36,174 bases of DNA from Minwuia sp. (GTDB lineage Bacteria > Pseudomonadota > Alphaproteobacteria > Minwuiales > Minwuiaceae), in assembly GCA_029213165.1 (NCBI GenBank), contig JARGNO010000040.1, positions 1-36,174 on the forward strand, written 5' to 3'. Under the pieces are notes generated by a model. It saw only the letters and a program-made list of their open reading frames with translations. It ran no database searches and was not told the origin of the DNA. The first letter of the stretch is position 1. Every line of letters starts with the position of its first letter. The position numbers and the translations under genes were made by a program. Of this stretch, positions 4,546 through 19,428 are shown piece after piece.

Positions 4546-5472
4546 ATGGAAGTTCTGGTGCTGGGTGCCGCCGCAGGGGGCGGATTTCCCCAATGGAACT
4601 GCAATTGCGTCAACTGCCGCGCCTTCTGGGACGGTGATCCGGCACTGCAGGCGCAGACCCAGTCCTCCATCGCCGTGTCGGCGGATGGCGCGCGGTTCGT
4701 GCTGTTCAATGCATCTCCTGACCTGCGCCAGCAGATCGAACGCAACCCGGCCCTGCATCCGAAGAGCGGCCTGCGCGACAGCCCGATTCGCGCTGCGGTG
4801 CTGACCAATGGCGATGTTGATCACACGGCGGGGCTGCTCAACCTGCGGGAAAGCCAGCCGCTGGCGCTCTATGCCACGCAGCGCATCCAGGACGTTCTGG
4901 CCGCCAACACGATCTTCAACGTGCTGAACCCGAAGTTTGTCGAAAGGCGGCCCTTCACCCTGAACCAGCCCGTTGACCTGACCGAACAGGACGGGACGCC
5001 GCTTGGTCTGTCGCTGACCGTCTTTCCTGTTCCCGGCAAGGTGGCGCTGTGGCTGGAGGATGGCTCGGCCGACAACAACTTCGGCACGGTGGACGAGGAT
5101 ACGGTCGGCGTGGAGATCACGGACGGTCAGGGACGGAAGCTGTTCTACATTCCCGGCTGTGCGCGCATGACCGATGAACTGGCTGAACGGCTGAACGGCG
5201 CTGCCATGGTGTTCTTCGATGGCACCCTTTGGACCGACGACGAGATGATGGTGCAGTCAGTGGGCATCAAGACCGGGCAGCGGATGGGGCACATGTCGAT
5301 CAGCGGACCGGATGGAACACTGGCCGCCTTCGATGGGCTGGAGGTCGGACGCAAGGTCTTCATCCATCTGAACAATACCAACCCCGTGCTGCGCCGGGAC
5401 GCGGCCGAACGGGCGGAGGTGGAGGCCCGTGGCTGGACGGTGGCGGAGGATGGCATGAGGTTGAGCCTGTGA
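4546..5472 (+). CDS. pqqB: Pyrroloquinoline quinone biosynthesis protein PqqB
   Basis: The 308-residue protein matches PqqB in length and sequence. It opens MEVLVLGAAAGGGFPQWNC, followed by NCVNCRAFW, and carries NGDVDHTAGLLNLRE, the PqqB version of the metallo-beta-lactamase metal motif. PqqB hydroxylates the Glu-Tyr-derived intermediate during PQQ synthesis in the cytosol. Start ATG 4546 follows GGGGGA. The usual partners pqqA, C, D and E are not in the window. The stop overlaps the GTG of zapE (GTGA), so the two are translationally coupled. A PQQ-dependent dehydrogenase is encoded at 17604-19307, a likely user of the cofactor. Confidence 0.93.
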   Translation: MEVLVLGAAAGGGFPQWNCNCVNCRAFWDGDPALQAQTQSSIAVSADGARFVLFNASPDLRQQIERNPALHPKSGLRDSPIRAAVLTNGDVDHTAGLLNLRESQPLALYATQRIQDVLAANTIFNVLNPKFVERRPFTLNQPVDLTEQDGTPLGLSLTVFPVPGKVALWLEDGSADNNFGTVDEDTVGVEITDGQGRKLFYIPGCARMTDELAERLNGAAMVFFDGTLWTDDEMMVQSVGIKTGQRMGHMSISGPDGTLAAFDGLEVGRKVFIHLNNTNPVLRRDAAERAEVEARGWTVAEDGMRLSL

Positions 5473-14349: not shown

Positions 14350-14988
14350 CTATGCCGCGTCGGGCTGCTTCATCGGATGGGCGTCGGCAAAGGCGGGCAG
14401 TTCGTTGCAGGCTGCATCAATGCGGACGAGGGTCGGGTAGGCGCTGAGGTCGAGGTCGAAGCGCCGGGCGAAGAATATCTGCGGCACCAGACAGGTATCA
14501 GCGATACTCGGTGTTTCCCCATGGCAGAACGTACCCGTCTGCTTTTCCTGCGAAAGCCTGGCCTCCAGCGCGGCAAGCCCGTCATGGACCCAATGGGCGA
14601 TCCAGGCGGCACGGGCTGTCTTGCCGCCACCAACGTCATGCTCGACATGGTTCAGAACCCGCAGGTTGCCGAGGGGGTGAATGTCAGCCGAGATGGCCAG
14701 CGCAATGCCCAGCACCCTTGCGCGTCCCGCCGCGTCGGCCGGAACCATCGGTGGCTCCGGATGCAGTGCATCCAGGTAATCGATGATCGCCAGCGACTGG
14801 AAGATGCGGTTGCCATCATGCTCCAGCACCGGGACCAGACCGGAGGGGCTGATGTTGCGAAAGGCTTCGGCGCGTTGCTCCCCCGTGAACAGGTTGACGA
14901 AGATCCGTTCGGCCTCCGCGCCTTTCAGGTTCATCACGATGCGCACCCGATAGGCTGCGGACGAGCGGAAATAGTCGTAGAATTTCAT
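14350..14988 (-). CDS. maiA: Maleylacetoacetate isomerase / zeta-class GST
   Basis: The 212-residue protein has the zeta-class signature: YFRSSAAYRVRI at residues 6-17 (SSAxxRVRI active-site motif), NPSGLVP-like SPSGLVPVLEHDG, and QSLAIIDYLD. Maleylacetoacetate isomerase uses glutathione to isomerise maleylacetoacetate in tyrosine or homogentisate breakdown. No other gene of that pathway is nearby. Instead the ATG overlaps the stop of the dihaem cytochrome gene (14985-14988), making it the last gene of the PQQ-dehydrogenase cluster. A role as a general zeta GST acting on oxidation products of that system is possible but inferred. The extended C-terminal helical domain is complete. Confidence 0.82.
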   Translation of the reverse strand: MKFYDYFRSSAAYRVRIVMNLKGAEAERIFVNLFTGEQRAEAFRNISPSGLVPVLEHDGNRIFQSLAIIDYLDALHPEPPMVPADAAGRARVLGIALAISADIHPLGNLRVLNHVEHDVGGGKTARAAWIAHWVHDGLAALEARLSQEKQTGTFCHGETPSIADTCLVPQIFFARRFDLDLSAYPTLVRIDAACNELPAFADAHPMKQPDAA

Positions 14989-16229
14989 TGGTCTGCCCCC
15001 TTTTCGGCACCTTCCGCAGCGCTGGCGTAGAGTGACGCCTGCTCATCTGCCTGCAGGCGTGGCAGGTCACGCCTGATGGCTTCCTTCAGCGCCGCGAGCT
15101 GTTCGCGTGCGCCCGGATAGTCCCGATCGAGGCCCGTCCGCACCAGCCGCGCCAGCGCCCTTGCCCAGTCCCGTATCAGCGCCCTCGCTTCCACCGCCTC
15201 CACGTCGAAGCGGCGATGGATGTGGCCGATCTCCATCGCCACCATGTCGCCGATCCGGTCGGCCCTCTTCCCGTCCTCATCCAGCAATTGCTGGTTCACG
15301 AGATCCAGAAACCCGTCGAGCCGCCGAAGATCGCCGGTCAGGGTTTCCGGGTCGAAGCGCCGTGTCACGGTGCCGATCCGCTCCGCCTCCCGGATTGCCG
15401 CCGACAGAATGCTGTCGGGCAGGCCCAGATTGTCATGGGCCTGAACCGCATCCCTCACCGTTGCCGCAGACCCGTCGTGCAGGTAGGGCGCGCTTTCGGC
15501 GAGGCCCAGCAGGGTCGGGGCCTGCACCAGCCGGCCGGTTCCGATGTCATGCACCTGCGGGTCAGGCATGGTTGCGCCGTCGCCGTGACACGACAGGCAG
15601 TTCGCGCGATAGGCCTTGCCGGTCTGCGCCGCGCGGTCCCGGTCAGTGAAGCCGAACTCCATCTGCCAGGCCACCAGTGCATCCATCAGCCAGTCCTCCA
15701 GCGGTGGTCCGCCGAACTCCCGCGTGATGACATTGTGGCTGAAGGCACGAAGCGTGGGGAAGCGCCCGTCATGGCCATAGGGCGCAGTCCAGCGTACGCC
15801 GCGCAGACTGGGGATATTGACCGGGTTGTCGATGCCGTCATCCTCACGGAAATGAAATTCCCGGTGGGTGAGGTCGATGTTGCCCGGCTGGTCCGACGCA
15901 CCGGGGATCATGAAGGCCGTATTGGCGGCACCATTCGTGTGGCAGGCGTCGCACGACAGGCCGCGCCGGGCCGCATCGCGCCCCAGGGTCAGCGGGCTGC
16001 GGAACACAAGCTCCCCCAGACGCGCCAGATGGCCGGGCGTGCCGCCGCGCTGCTCGGTGATGACTGCCCTGGCCGGATATTCGGAGAGCGTCGCTTCGAT
16101 CCGCGATCCGGGCGGCAGCCATTTCAGCGGATCTTCCTGTGAAGCCGCAATCTGGCTGGTCAACAGGACGCAAAGGCCGACAATCAGACCTGACAGCAGA
16201 TACAGGGGCCGTGGCAGTGGCCGGGACAT
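14985..16229 (-). CDS. Dihaem cytochrome c, peroxidase/MauG-like
   Basis: A 414-residue periplasmic c-type cytochrome with an N-terminal signal or anchor (LYLLSGLIVGLCVLLTSQIAAS). Two haem motifs are C93-D-A-C-H97 and C211-L-S-C-H215. Flanking segments follow the cytochrome c peroxidase/MauG family: RGLSCDACH, NIPSLRGVRWTAPYGHDGRFPTL, and later APTLLGLAESAPYLHDG. It could be a peroxidase, a MauG-type maturase or an electron carrier to the dehydrogenase. The C-terminal 130 residues are predicted helical and unusual in length. It starts three bases after the XoxJ-like gene (AGGA site) and overlaps maiA by four bases, so it is firmly within the xox-type operon. Confidence 0.85.
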   Translation of the reverse strand: MSRPLPRPLYLLSGLIVGLCVLLTSQIAASQEDPLKWLPPGSRIEATLSEYPARAVITEQRGGTPGHLARLGELVFRSPLTLGRDAARRGLSCDACHTNGAANTAFMIPGASDQPGNIDLTHREFHFREDDGIDNPVNIPSLRGVRWTAPYGHDGRFPTLRAFSHNVITREFGGPPLEDWLMDALVAWQMEFGFTDRDRAAQTGKAYRANCLSCHGDGATMPDPQVHDIGTGRLVQAPTLLGLAESAPYLHDGSAATVRDAVQAHDNLGLPDSILSAAIREAERIGTVTRRFDPETLTGDLRRLDGFLDLVNQQLLDEDGKRADRIGDMVAMEIGHIHRRFDVEAVEARALIRDWARALARLVRTGLDRDYPGAREQLAALKEAIRRDLPRLQADEQASLYASAAEGAEKGADQ

Positions 16230-16232
16230 GGA

Positions 16233-17174
16233 TTATCCTGCGTTGAGCATTCCGGGGGTCAGACGCTCCAGAACCCATGGGGCTGCCGGGGGGATGCGCG
16301 TCATCTGCCAGCGTTCGGCCAGCGCATCCAGCGTACCATCTGCCTCCATCGCGTCCAGAATCACGTTCACCTGTTCACGCAGGGTGCCATGTCGCTCCAG
16401 CACCGCCATACCCATGTTGACGCCGAAGGGGTGCACATAGCCGCTCCAGCGCAGGGGAGTCTCCGGGTTGCGCCGCTTGAAGTTGTCGAACTTGTGCAAT
16501 TCGATCAGTACCGCATCGAATTCACCCTCCGCCGTGCGTGGCAGCAGGTCCTTCGTCTCCGAAACATTCGAGATGTCGTCCACCAGCACGCCACCGGCAT
16601 TGCGGAACAGCAGCACGCTGGCCATCGTCCCGACTTCGGCTCCCAGTTTCAGCCCCTTCAGGTCCGCCAGTCGGGTGATGGCACGATCCCTTGCCGCCTG
16701 GCCGACAATGACGCCATAGCCGGCGCGGTAGTATGGCTGCGTTGCGCTGAGTACCCCGAGCCGCACCAGCCGGCCGCGTTCGGCGCGGTTCATGCCTTCG
16801 TATTCCGGGACTGCGCCCTTGTCGGTTTCCGGTTTGCCGAGCGTGGAGCCGAGCAGGGGATAGCCAGCGATAAGGTCGCAGAGCCCGTCGCTGAGCAGGG
16901 CATTGGCCTCCCACACCGGCACGGCTTCCTCGTCATTCTCGGATTCGAACCACTGGATCTTCAGGGGGCGCCCCATGCGTTTCGCGATCTCCTCCGCGAC
17001 ACCGTGGTCGAAGCCCCCCTTGCGGGGGCCGAAGCTGAACGACAGCGGCGGGGAATCCTCCTCCAGGCAGATCGTCAGGGGGGTCGGCTGTGCCTGTGCG
17101 CCGGCGGTCAGCAGCAGCGCGGTTGCAGCGGCGGTGACAAGTCCGGTCAGGCGGCCACGGAGCGGAAGGCGCAT
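16233..17174 (-). CDS. xoxJ: XoxJ-like quinoprotein-associated periplasmic binding protein
   Basis: A 313-residue secreted protein of the family-3 solute-binding fold. The signal peptide (LVTAAATALLLTAGAQAQ) is followed by LTICLEEDSPPLSF and GFDHGVAEEIAKRMGRPLKIQWFE, features of the quinoprotein dehydrogenase-associated binding proteins MxaJ/XoxJ. XoxJ is thought to bind and help activate the partly folded XoxF apoenzyme rather than feed a transporter, and no permease is present here. The ATG at 17174 is the one overlapping the cytochrome stop (ATGA). An in-frame ATG at 17207 lies inside that gene and adds eleven residues before the signal peptide. Position directly after the cytochrome in the dehydrogenase operon supports the assignment. 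Confidence 0.85.
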   Translation of the reverse strand: MRLPLRGRLTGLVTAAATALLLTAGAQAQPTPLTICLEEDSPPLSFSFGPRKGGFDHGVAEEIAKRMGRPLKIQWFESENDEEAVPVWEANALLSDGLCDLIAGYPLLGSTLGKPETDKGAVPEYEGMNRAERGRLVRLGVLSATQPYYRAGYGVIVGQAARDRAITRLADLKGLKLGAEVGTMASVLLFRNAGGVLVDDISNVSETKDLLPRTAEGEFDAVLIELHKFDNFKRRNPETPLRWSGYVHPFGVNMGMAVLERHGTLREQVNVILDAMEADGTLDALAERWQMTRIPPAAPWVLERLTPGMLNAG

Positions 17175-17506
17175 CACAGCCTGCCCCGGGTCTTGGTATA
17201 GGCCCACAGGTGGTCGATTTCCTCCGCCGTCAGGATATCACCCCAGGCGGGCATCTCGTTGCGACCCTTCTTGCCGTCCTTCACCGATTTGACGAAGCGT
17301 GCGCGGGCGCCGAGGGGGAACTTGCGCAGGTCGAAGGCGCGGGCGCCGGAATTGACCATGTTGGGGCCATGGCAGATGACGCAATAGGTATTGTAGAGCT
17401 CCTTGCCGGTCTCCGCCGAGCCTGCGGCCTGAGCTGACACGGTCAGGGTCATGGTCGCGAGCATCGTGGCACCGATGCCGAATGTCTTGATCCATCGAGC
17501 ACGCAT
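17174..17506 (-). CDS. Small monohaem cytochrome c (XoxG-like electron acceptor)
   Basis: A 110-residue secreted cytochrome c. A signal peptide ends at about residue 28 (VSAQAAG), and a single haem site C42-V-I-C-H46 is followed by a probable Met ligand in RNEMPAWGD and the C-terminal LTAEEIDHLWAYTKTRG helix typical of class I cytochromes. It is the obvious electron acceptor for the PQQ dehydrogenase upstream, analogous to XoxG/MxaG (cytochrome cL). It is much shorter than the usual cL of about 170-200 residues, so calling it XoxG by sequence would be too strong. GGAG stands eleven bases before the ATG. It lies 97 bases after the dehydrogenase stop, past a strong hairpin. Confidence 0.85.
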   Translation of the reverse strand: MRARWIKTFGIGATMLATMTLTVSAQAAGSAETGKELYNTYCVICHGPNMVNSGARAFDLRKFPLGARARFVKSVKDGKKGRNEMPAWGDILTAEEIDHLWAYTKTRGRL

Positions 17507-17554
17507 TGTCCGATTTCTCCAGTAGGTTCGTACTTGCAGGCCAGAGAAGCGGAA

Positions 17555-17581
17555 GGGGCCGCCCGTTGCGCGGGCGACCCC
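17555..17581 (-). terminator. Hairpin between xoxF-like and cytochrome genes
   Basis: An 11-base stem (17555-17565 with 17571-17581, one mismatch) closes a five-base loop, giving a very stable GC hairpin just after the dehydrogenase stop. No T-run follows on the transcribed strand. It could be partial termination or 3'-end protection that makes more dehydrogenase than cytochrome message. Confidence 0.5.
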
Positions 17582-17603
17582 CTCAGACGTCCACGGGGGA
17601 CGA

Positions 17604-19307
17604 TTACTTCAGCAGCGCGAAGGTCCAGAAGGAACCACCCGGCTGCACCTTGGTCAGTTCTTCAACGACTTCCGGGGCGTTCACGCCACCCAGCAGCGGG
17701 AAGTAGTTCCGGTAGGCACCGCCGATACCCGACGCGACGGTGACATACTGCACACCATCGATCGTATAGGTAACCGGCTGGCCGATGATCCCGGAGCCCG
17801 TCTGGAACTGCCACAGCTTGTTGCCGTTGTCGGCGTCGAAGGCCATGAACTCGCCGGTCTGTGCACCGGTGAAGACCAGGCCACCGCCGGTCGCCATCGT
17901 ACCGCTCCAGTTGGCGACGTTGAAGCCGACTTCCCACTTGGCCTTGCCCGTCAGCGGGTCAATGCCCCGCAGATAGGAGTGCTTCTCGCCCTCCTTGACG
18001 TAGAACAGTGCCTTGGAAAGGTCGATGCCGACGTAGAACGTGCCCTTGACCAGCTTCGGTTCGATGGGCTTGTAGCCCATGCCGATCTCCAGCGTGTTCG
18101 AATACACCAGGCCGGTCTTCGGGCTGTAGGATGCCGGGAACCAGTTCTTGCCGCCGAAAGCACCCGGCCAGACGACGATTTCCTCGCCCGCCCGCATCTT
18201 CTTGGTGATCTCCGAATCGATCGGGCGACCGGACTTCATGTCGATCCCGTCGGCCCAGTTCAGATGCTTGACGTACTGGTTGGCACGCAGCAGTTCGCCA
18301 TTGGTGCGATCCAGGACATACATGAAGCCGTTGCGGGCGACATGGATCATGACCTTCCGGTTCTTCCCGTCGATCATCATGTCGGTGAGGATGTTCTCGC
18401 CCACCTCATCATAGTCATAGGGATCATTCGGCGAATACTGGTAGTGCCAGACGATCTCACCTGTTTCCGGGCGCATGGCCAGGGTGGATGTGATGTACAG
18501 GTTGTCGCCCTTGCGGAACTCGGCGTTCCAGGGACCGCCATTGCCCGTGCCCCAGTAGACCAGGTTGAGTTCCGGATCGTAGGAACCTGTGATCCAGGTC
18601 GGCGCGCCACCATGCTTCCAGGTATCGCCCGGCCAGGTCTCGTTGCCCTTTTCGCCCGGCCCGGGGATCACGTACTTCCGCCACAGGTGGCGACCGGTTG
18701 CCGGATCCCACCCGTCGATGAAGCCACGGGTGCCATACTCGCCACCGGACACGCCGGTGATCACGGCAGCCGGGGTCACCAGCGGTGCCAGGGTCATGGA
18801 ATAGCCGTCATCGATGGAGGCCGCGGCGGAGCGCCACATTTCCTCACCGGTTTCCATGCTGATCGCGATGACATTGCCGTCCAGCGTCACGCGGAACAGG
18901 CGGCCATCCAGCACGGCGGCGCCACGATTGACAATGCCGCAGCAGACGATGCGTGGCGTCTCGGGCGGATACTCGATCTTGTTGACCCAGATATTCTTGC
19001 CGGTCTTCACATCAACGGCGTGGGTCGCGTCATGGGTGGTGACGTACATGACGCCATTGTGGACAATCGGCTGTGCCTCCTGCCCCCGGTTGTCACCCAG
19101 GCTGTAATTCCAGACCGGAACCAGACGCCCGACGTTCTTTGCATTGATCTGCTCCAGCGGGCTGTAACGGGTCTGGCCCCAGCCCATGCCCAGCGTCAGC
19201 ACATCATCAGTCGTTGCAGCGTCATTCTTGAGATCGTCAATGGTCTGCGCCCCGGCGATTACCGGCATGCCAGCAATCACCGCCGCACAAAGTACGCGTT
19301 TCAACAT
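17604..19307 (-). CDS. PQQ-dependent alcohol dehydrogenase, XoxF-like (lanthanide type)
   Basis: A 567-residue periplasmic quinoprotein of the methanol/ethanol dehydrogenase family. A signal peptide ends near residue 20 (AGA-QT). Tryptophan-docking propeller repeats fill the chain. Vicinal C122-C123 forms the active-site disulphide ring. Metal ligands are Glu190 (SGGEYG) and Asn256 (GTGNGG). Catalytic Asp298 is followed by Asp300 (DPYDYDE), and an Asp two residues after the catalytic Asp is the mark of lanthanide-dependent enzymes (XoxF, ExaF/PedH). Substrate, methanol or a longer alcohol, is not decided, and the sequence DEVGENIL differs from classic XoxF DGVNENIL. ATG 19307 has GGAGG eight bases upstream, while ATG 19313 abuts it. 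First gene of the operon running to maiA. Confidence 0.93.
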   Translation of the reverse strand: MLKRVLCAAVIAGMPVIAGAQTIDDLKNDAATTDDVLTLGMGWGQTRYSPLEQINAKNVGRLVPVWNYSLGDNRGQEAQPIVHNGVMYVTTHDATHAVDVKTGKNIWVNKIEYPPETPRIVCCGIVNRGAAVLDGRLFRVTLDGNVIAISMETGEEMWRSAAASIDDGYSMTLAPLVTPAAVITGVSGGEYGTRGFIDGWDPATGRHLWRKYVIPGPGEKGNETWPGDTWKHGGAPTWITGSYDPELNLVYWGTGNGGPWNAEFRKGDNLYITSTLAMRPETGEIVWHYQYSPNDPYDYDEVGENILTDMMIDGKNRKVMIHVARNGFMYVLDRTNGELLRANQYVKHLNWADGIDMKSGRPIDSEITKKMRAGEEIVVWPGAFGGKNWFPASYSPKTGLVYSNTLEIGMGYKPIEPKLVKGTFYVGIDLSKALFYVKEGEKHSYLRGIDPLTGKAKWEVGFNVANWSGTMATGGGLVFTGAQTGEFMAFDADNGNKLWQFQTGSGIIGQPVTYTIDGVQYVTVASGIGGAYRNYFPLLGGVNAPEVVEELTKVQPGGSFWTFALLK

Positions 19308-19428
19308 GGTCATCTCCTCCCAGGCGGCGATTCTTTTTGCATTGCGTGCCGCTCTTTGAATGCTTCAAGTGTCCAACAGCCGTGAAACATTTGCAACAAT
19401 GTCGGTGACGTAGGGGGAGGATTGATGC

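Follow-up and report, generated by a model that had tools for sequence, protein, structure and literature searches.

The window analysed here, a stretch of 36,174 nucleotides of Minwuia sp., carries a PQQ dehydrogenase with a lanthanide signature in an operon that also encodes a two-haem protein, and this raises the question of what kind of dehydrogenase it is and whether the two-haem protein serves it. The explanation that we consider likely is that the locus is a periplasmic alcohol-oxidation module built on a dehydrogenase of the ExaF/PedH kind, to which the dihaem protein was added as a captured neighbour and not as a maturase of the dehydrogenase.

The genes, called by codon-usage scoring, lie on the minus strand in the order dehydrogenase, 110-residue cytochrome, XoxJ-like protein, dihaem protein and maiA (Table 1). 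This order is kept in further species of the genus, so the block is not a product of chance, and its five genes are presumably co-transcribed. The cytochrome and XoxJ-like genes overlap in TGATG at 17174, the dihaem gene follows after a gap of three bases, and it overlaps maiA in ATGA, an arrangement that a preliminary description of this DNA had located correctly, together with the 110-residue monohaem cytochrome; maiA, which lies inside the span of 14350-19307 covered by that description, was absent from it. The gap of 97 bases between the dehydrogenase and cytochrome genes contains a GC-rich hairpin, kept in all four genomes compared, which is a possible attenuator or mRNA stabiliser; the fold of the whole gap is weak (z −2.1). 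There is no T-run 3' of the hairpin. The first ATG of the dehydrogenase gene is at 19313; the ATG at 19307 is better spaced from a GGAGG and is the likelier start.

Table 1 Features of the dehydrogenase operon, and the pqqB gene of the same window
Feature	Position	Strand	Evidence
PQQ-dependent alcohol dehydrogenase, lanthanide-type	17604..19307	-	TIGR03075, 633 bits; aligned metal and disulfide residues; tree; AU test; start context
12-bp GC-rich hairpin	17554..17582	-	Fold and alignment of four species
110-aa secreted monohaem c-type cytochrome (CVICH)	17174..17506	-	PF13442, E 7e-14
XoxJ/MxaJ-like periplasmic binding protein, ATG 17174	16233..17174	-	PF00497; TIGR03871, E 2e-7 (below cut-off); PDB 6onp (XoxJ), E 6e-5
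Two-haem secreted protein, distant MauG/CCP/MbnH superfamily, 414 aa	14985..16229	-	CDACH and CLSCH; 17-homologue alignment; AF2; Foldseek
Zeta-class glutathione transferase / maleylacetoacetate isomerase (maiA)	14350..14988	-	TIGR01262, 257 bits (cut-off 171)
pqqB	4546..5472	+	TIGR02108, 406 bits

To place the dehydrogenase, which matches the methanol/ethanol family of PQQ enzymes, we aligned it to solved enzymes. The metal ligands Glu192, Asn258 and Asp300 are present and agree with PedH/XoxF, and the vicinal disulfide Cys124-Cys125, Arg327 and Trp240 also align with these enzymes. Asp302, the lanthanide-specific extra Asp two residues past the catalytic Asp, aligns with that of XoxF2/XoxF5, and its position is occupied by Ser or Ala in ExaA and MxaF. 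The Asp-Tyr-Asp motif comprises residues 300-302 when counted from ATG 19313 and 298-300 from ATG 19307, and the lanthanide signature Asp298-Tyr-Asp300 of the preliminary description is exact for the latter start. From this site, the enzyme is probably rare-earth-dependent. Its identity is 34-40% to the reference enzymes, which by their PDB entries we take to be PedH, ExaA, ADH-IIB, XoxF2, XoxF of M. buryatense, XoxF of M. extorquens and MxaF.

In a tree of 55 sequences, the dehydrogenase falls inside a clade of its own with 14 members (100% SH-aLRT), all of which carry DYD. This clade joins ExaA/PedH, apart from XoxF/MxaF, at 95% SH-aLRT, a placement taken from one quick tree with few reference sequences. 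In AU tests, whose groups were picked after the tree had been seen, forcing the clade together with XoxF/MxaF was rejected (p-AU 0.005), as was forcing it together with the PedH-like sequences alone, without ExaA. The name "xox operon" given earlier to the locus is thus not upheld, and the tree and the AU test speak against a XoxF identity of the enzyme; its separate clade, placed next to ExaA/PedH, makes it kin of the ExaF/PedH group more than a member. Several families of Alphaproteobacteria, as well as a further class of the phylum, contain relatives with 51-60% identity. In its own genome the dehydrogenase is the sole match of its search at E 0.001, a limit that a remoter PQQ enzyme could escape. 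Genome G016 has, on a single contig (L095), two different PQQ dehydrogenases with WDYD and FDYD signatures, separated by about 10 kb.

The dehydrogenase, the small cytochrome and the XoxJ-like protein form a triad that is also found outside the genus. All three genes follow one another directly downstream in this order in four genomes (G524, G691, G715 and G733), and the triad is likewise complete in G402, which belongs to another class, and in G065, where it is followed by four genes resembling pqqB, pqqC, pqqD and pqqE, recognised by eye. Several of the triad genomes, of 6-8 Mb, come from one other family. Parts of the set were seen in G608 (dehydrogenase and cytochrome), G361 (dehydrogenase and XoxJ-like gene) and G027 (dehydrogenase alone), and in the last two the small cytochrome may have escaped a cruder gene calling. 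All counterparts of the cytochrome found in relatives measure 106-128 aa; the protein had been thought unusually small, but this size is characteristic of the clade. The window protein is 36-45% identical to the cytochromes adjoining related dehydrogenases outside the genus, matches profiles of the c6/CcoP type, and is presumed to be the electron acceptor of the dehydrogenase. The XoxJ-like protein, reported correctly from the first, is encoded next to related dehydrogenases in other lineages as well; it scores 20-31 bits against TIGR03870/TIGR03871, with cut-offs of 212-258, and is thus XoxJ-like only, and not a member of the curated XoxJ/MoxJ families.

The same accessories, a partner cytochrome and a binding protein, are carried by the exaF and ped clusters (PMC12997753, PMC7391723), and the triad is a set of the known exaF-exaG-exaJ kind. 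With the systems ExaF/PedH, ExaG/PedF and ExaJ/PedG it shares the DYD/DFD signature, a periplasmic PQQ enzyme, and the co-encoded c-type cytochrome and MxaJ-like binding protein. In contrast to these systems, the window enzyme is about 40% identical to PedH and lies in a separate clade, Tyr or Phe replaces Trp before the catalytic Asp, the cytochrome is small, and the dihaem gene and maiA are added in this genus. The xoxFGJ operon has the same gene order, metal motif and XoxJ-like third gene, whereas the enzyme studied here, at 36-40% identity, is outside the XoxF clade, its cytochrome is c6/CcoP-like, and the match of the third gene to XoxJ is weak.

The pqq set of the host is split. The pqqB gene is 9 kb from the operon; pqqE was found above cut-off on another contig of the same genome, where two neighbouring genes resemble pqqD and pqqC by eye. 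PQQ can thus probably be made by the host. In all seven congeners, too, pqqE is above cut-off. Fae is absent from the seven congeners searched and a GSH-dependent formaldehyde dehydrogenase is present, which favours an ethanol-type or broader alcohol substrate over methylotrophy, although methanol may be oxidised, given the latter enzyme. Metal, substrate and electron path of the dehydrogenase are here deduced from sequence.

The fourth gene of the block does encode, as first described, a two-haem protein of the CCP/MauG superfamily that is outside the textbook set. It has two CXXCH motifs, CDACH and CLSCH, and matches PF03150 with 26.8 bits (cut-off 25.6, E 9e-6), as do all 17 homologues at E up to 0.01; a PF03150 scan of its own genome gave no match although the protein alone passes the Pfam cut-off, which marks a limit of the scan and not an absence. 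In the AF2 model (pLDDT 78), residues 55-285 are near bacterial dihaem cytochrome c peroxidases (CCPs) by both Foldseek (E 1e-4 to 1iqc) and VIA-align, and residues 294-403 form a C-terminal four-helix bundle. The top VIA-align matches are generic four-helix bundles on the latter segment, and were left out of the reading of function. Profiles of the family reach CCP, MauG, MbnH and hydrazine synthase gamma, a superfamily with which the protein shares the two CXXCH motifs and the CCP-like fold of residues 55-285. It departs from this superfamily in staying below every NCBIfam cut-off (for the MauG model TIGR03791, 19.8 bits against 443.9), in its additional helix bundle, and in that some of its homologues have a single CXXCH. 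Both haem sites are invariant across the 17 aligned homologues, and no Trp is invariant in the same alignment; bacterial CCPs use a Trp between the haems.

Within the genus, the dihaem gene is present in all seven sampled congeners and the XoxJ-like gene in five. The block of triad, dihaem gene and maiA occurs in 5/7 species, four of which show the dehydrogenase, while the contig of the fifth begins inside the cytochrome gene. The dehydrogenases on contigs L003-L005, from Minwuia and relatives, are 94-96% identical, and the genus was assigned by these contigs; some of them belong to the same genomes as the sampled congeners and are not counted twice in the five of seven. The block is kept in G082 although its flank differs. 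In all five species having the block, maiA, the zeta-class glutathione transferase gene, is its last gene. In two congeners (G368 and G386) the dihaem gene is flanked by genes for a B12-dependent ribonucleotide reductase and for an MsbA-like transporter, and the M48-dsbA flank known from the window has no triad in these genomes. In both of them (contigs L088/L102 and L124) a PQQ dehydrogenase-like protein is encoded at a distance of about 9-10 kb from the dihaem gene, and that of G368 has a C-terminal CXXCH and a WDYT motif. We infer that the dihaem gene was relocated to, and captured by, the triad operon in this genus. The two congeners could equally well have lost the triad, and the dihaem family would be independent in either case.

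This independence is seen outside the genus. A dihaem homologue was detected in 28 of 385 genomes of the class, which leaves 24 for neighbour counts after subtraction of four from the genus of the window. The gene adjoins tldD in 15 of these 24 genomes, in most of them with gshA, rsmE, ubiA and coxBA/ctaB nearby (in example loci, NCBIfam models confirmed TldD and gshA). No PQQ dehydrogenase matched by our search was near it in any of the 24, within about 10 kb on each side where the contig allowed. A class-wide association between the dihaem family and PQQ dehydrogenases was dropped, since their co-occurrence is at chance level (Fisher p 0.37 when the genus is included and 0.81 when it is left out). 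The nearest relative outside the genus, in G290 of the same family, has the N-terminal part only and also lies at a tldD locus. Contigs with a family member at this locus include L077, L078, L079, L085, L087, L158 and L159, and several of these members have a single CXXCH. The sample covers a fraction of the class, and the counts are bounded by search sensitivity, contig ends and the quick tree. Judged from these data, the dihaem proteins appear to be an old, widespread alphaproteobacterial family that is independent of PQQ dehydrogenases elsewhere. Searching the literature for a combination of xoxJ and CCP, or of CCP, tldD and gshA, gave no result. Loss of synteny, named earlier as a sign of an accidental neighbour, is observed outside the genus, whereas within it five of seven species keep the block. 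The suggested role of the dihaem protein as a maturase of the dehydrogenase or a diverter of its electrons found no support, given a family that is independent (p 0.81), mostly at the tldD locus, and kept without the triad.

In the captured-neighbour explanation, the dehydrogenase would bind PQQ and, through its Asp-Tyr-Asp site, a lanthanide, and would oxidise an alcohol, C2 or larger being likelier than methanol as growth substrate. Electrons would pass to the adjoining small c-type cytochrome, and the XoxJ-like protein would assist activation or assembly of the enzyme. The core of these three genes recurs in unrelated lineages. The dihaem protein, with its CCP-like haem domain and four-helix bundle, would have joined the operon of the triad and maiA in part of the genus, and most likely retains the periplasmic job of its ancestors, related to haem, redox or peroxide, instead of maturing the dehydrogenase. 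A CCP-like periplasmic redox job is our best guess.

A point against a mere neighbour is the block itself, which, with its overlapping genes in several species and even at a differing flank, could reflect a functional link gained in the genus. The dihaem protein may then have been recruited as a true partner, reducing peroxide with electrons of the small cytochrome, or protecting the dehydrogenase, PQQ or haem from peroxide. The tight operon in several species, the CCP-like fold and the invariance of both haem sites in the 17 aligned homologues agree with this, but the family is independent of PQQ dehydrogenases elsewhere, two congeners retain the gene and lack the triad, and the family alignment has no invariant Trp, so that we regard such recruitment as unlikely. 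Somewhat more doubtful is its role as a dedicated partner of the dehydrogenase in this genus, in which electrons of the small cytochrome would serve for peroxide removal, or for tuning or repairing the enzyme; this would be a two-branched electron path, of which we found no description in the literature for any PQQ dehydrogenase. That the dihaem protein acts as a MauG-like maturase, modifying either the dehydrogenase or the XoxJ-like protein, is hardly credible: the family profile does match MauG and MbnH, but the window protein is far under the cut-offs of both, and in other lineages related dehydrogenases whose active site is the same have no dihaem neighbour. PQQ dehydrogenases, moreover, use PQQ as cofactor, and a protein-bound quinone is not needed. 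As for the dehydrogenase, a diverged XoxF in an operon serving methylotrophy would fit the DYD motif, the XoxJ-like protein, the xoxFGJ-like gene order and the GSH-formaldehyde dehydrogenase, yet the tree and AU test, the small c6/CcoP-like cytochrome and the lack of Fae in the congeners searched speak against it and make it very improbable.

These results point to a compact clade of lanthanide-signature alcohol dehydrogenases with its own very small cytochrome, present in at least two proteobacterial classes, for which our searches identified no characterised member. They also uncover an alphaproteobacterial family of CCP-like proteins with a recurrent tldD/gshA/coxBA neighbourhood, and caution that partnership in an operon of a single genus is a poor guide to function.
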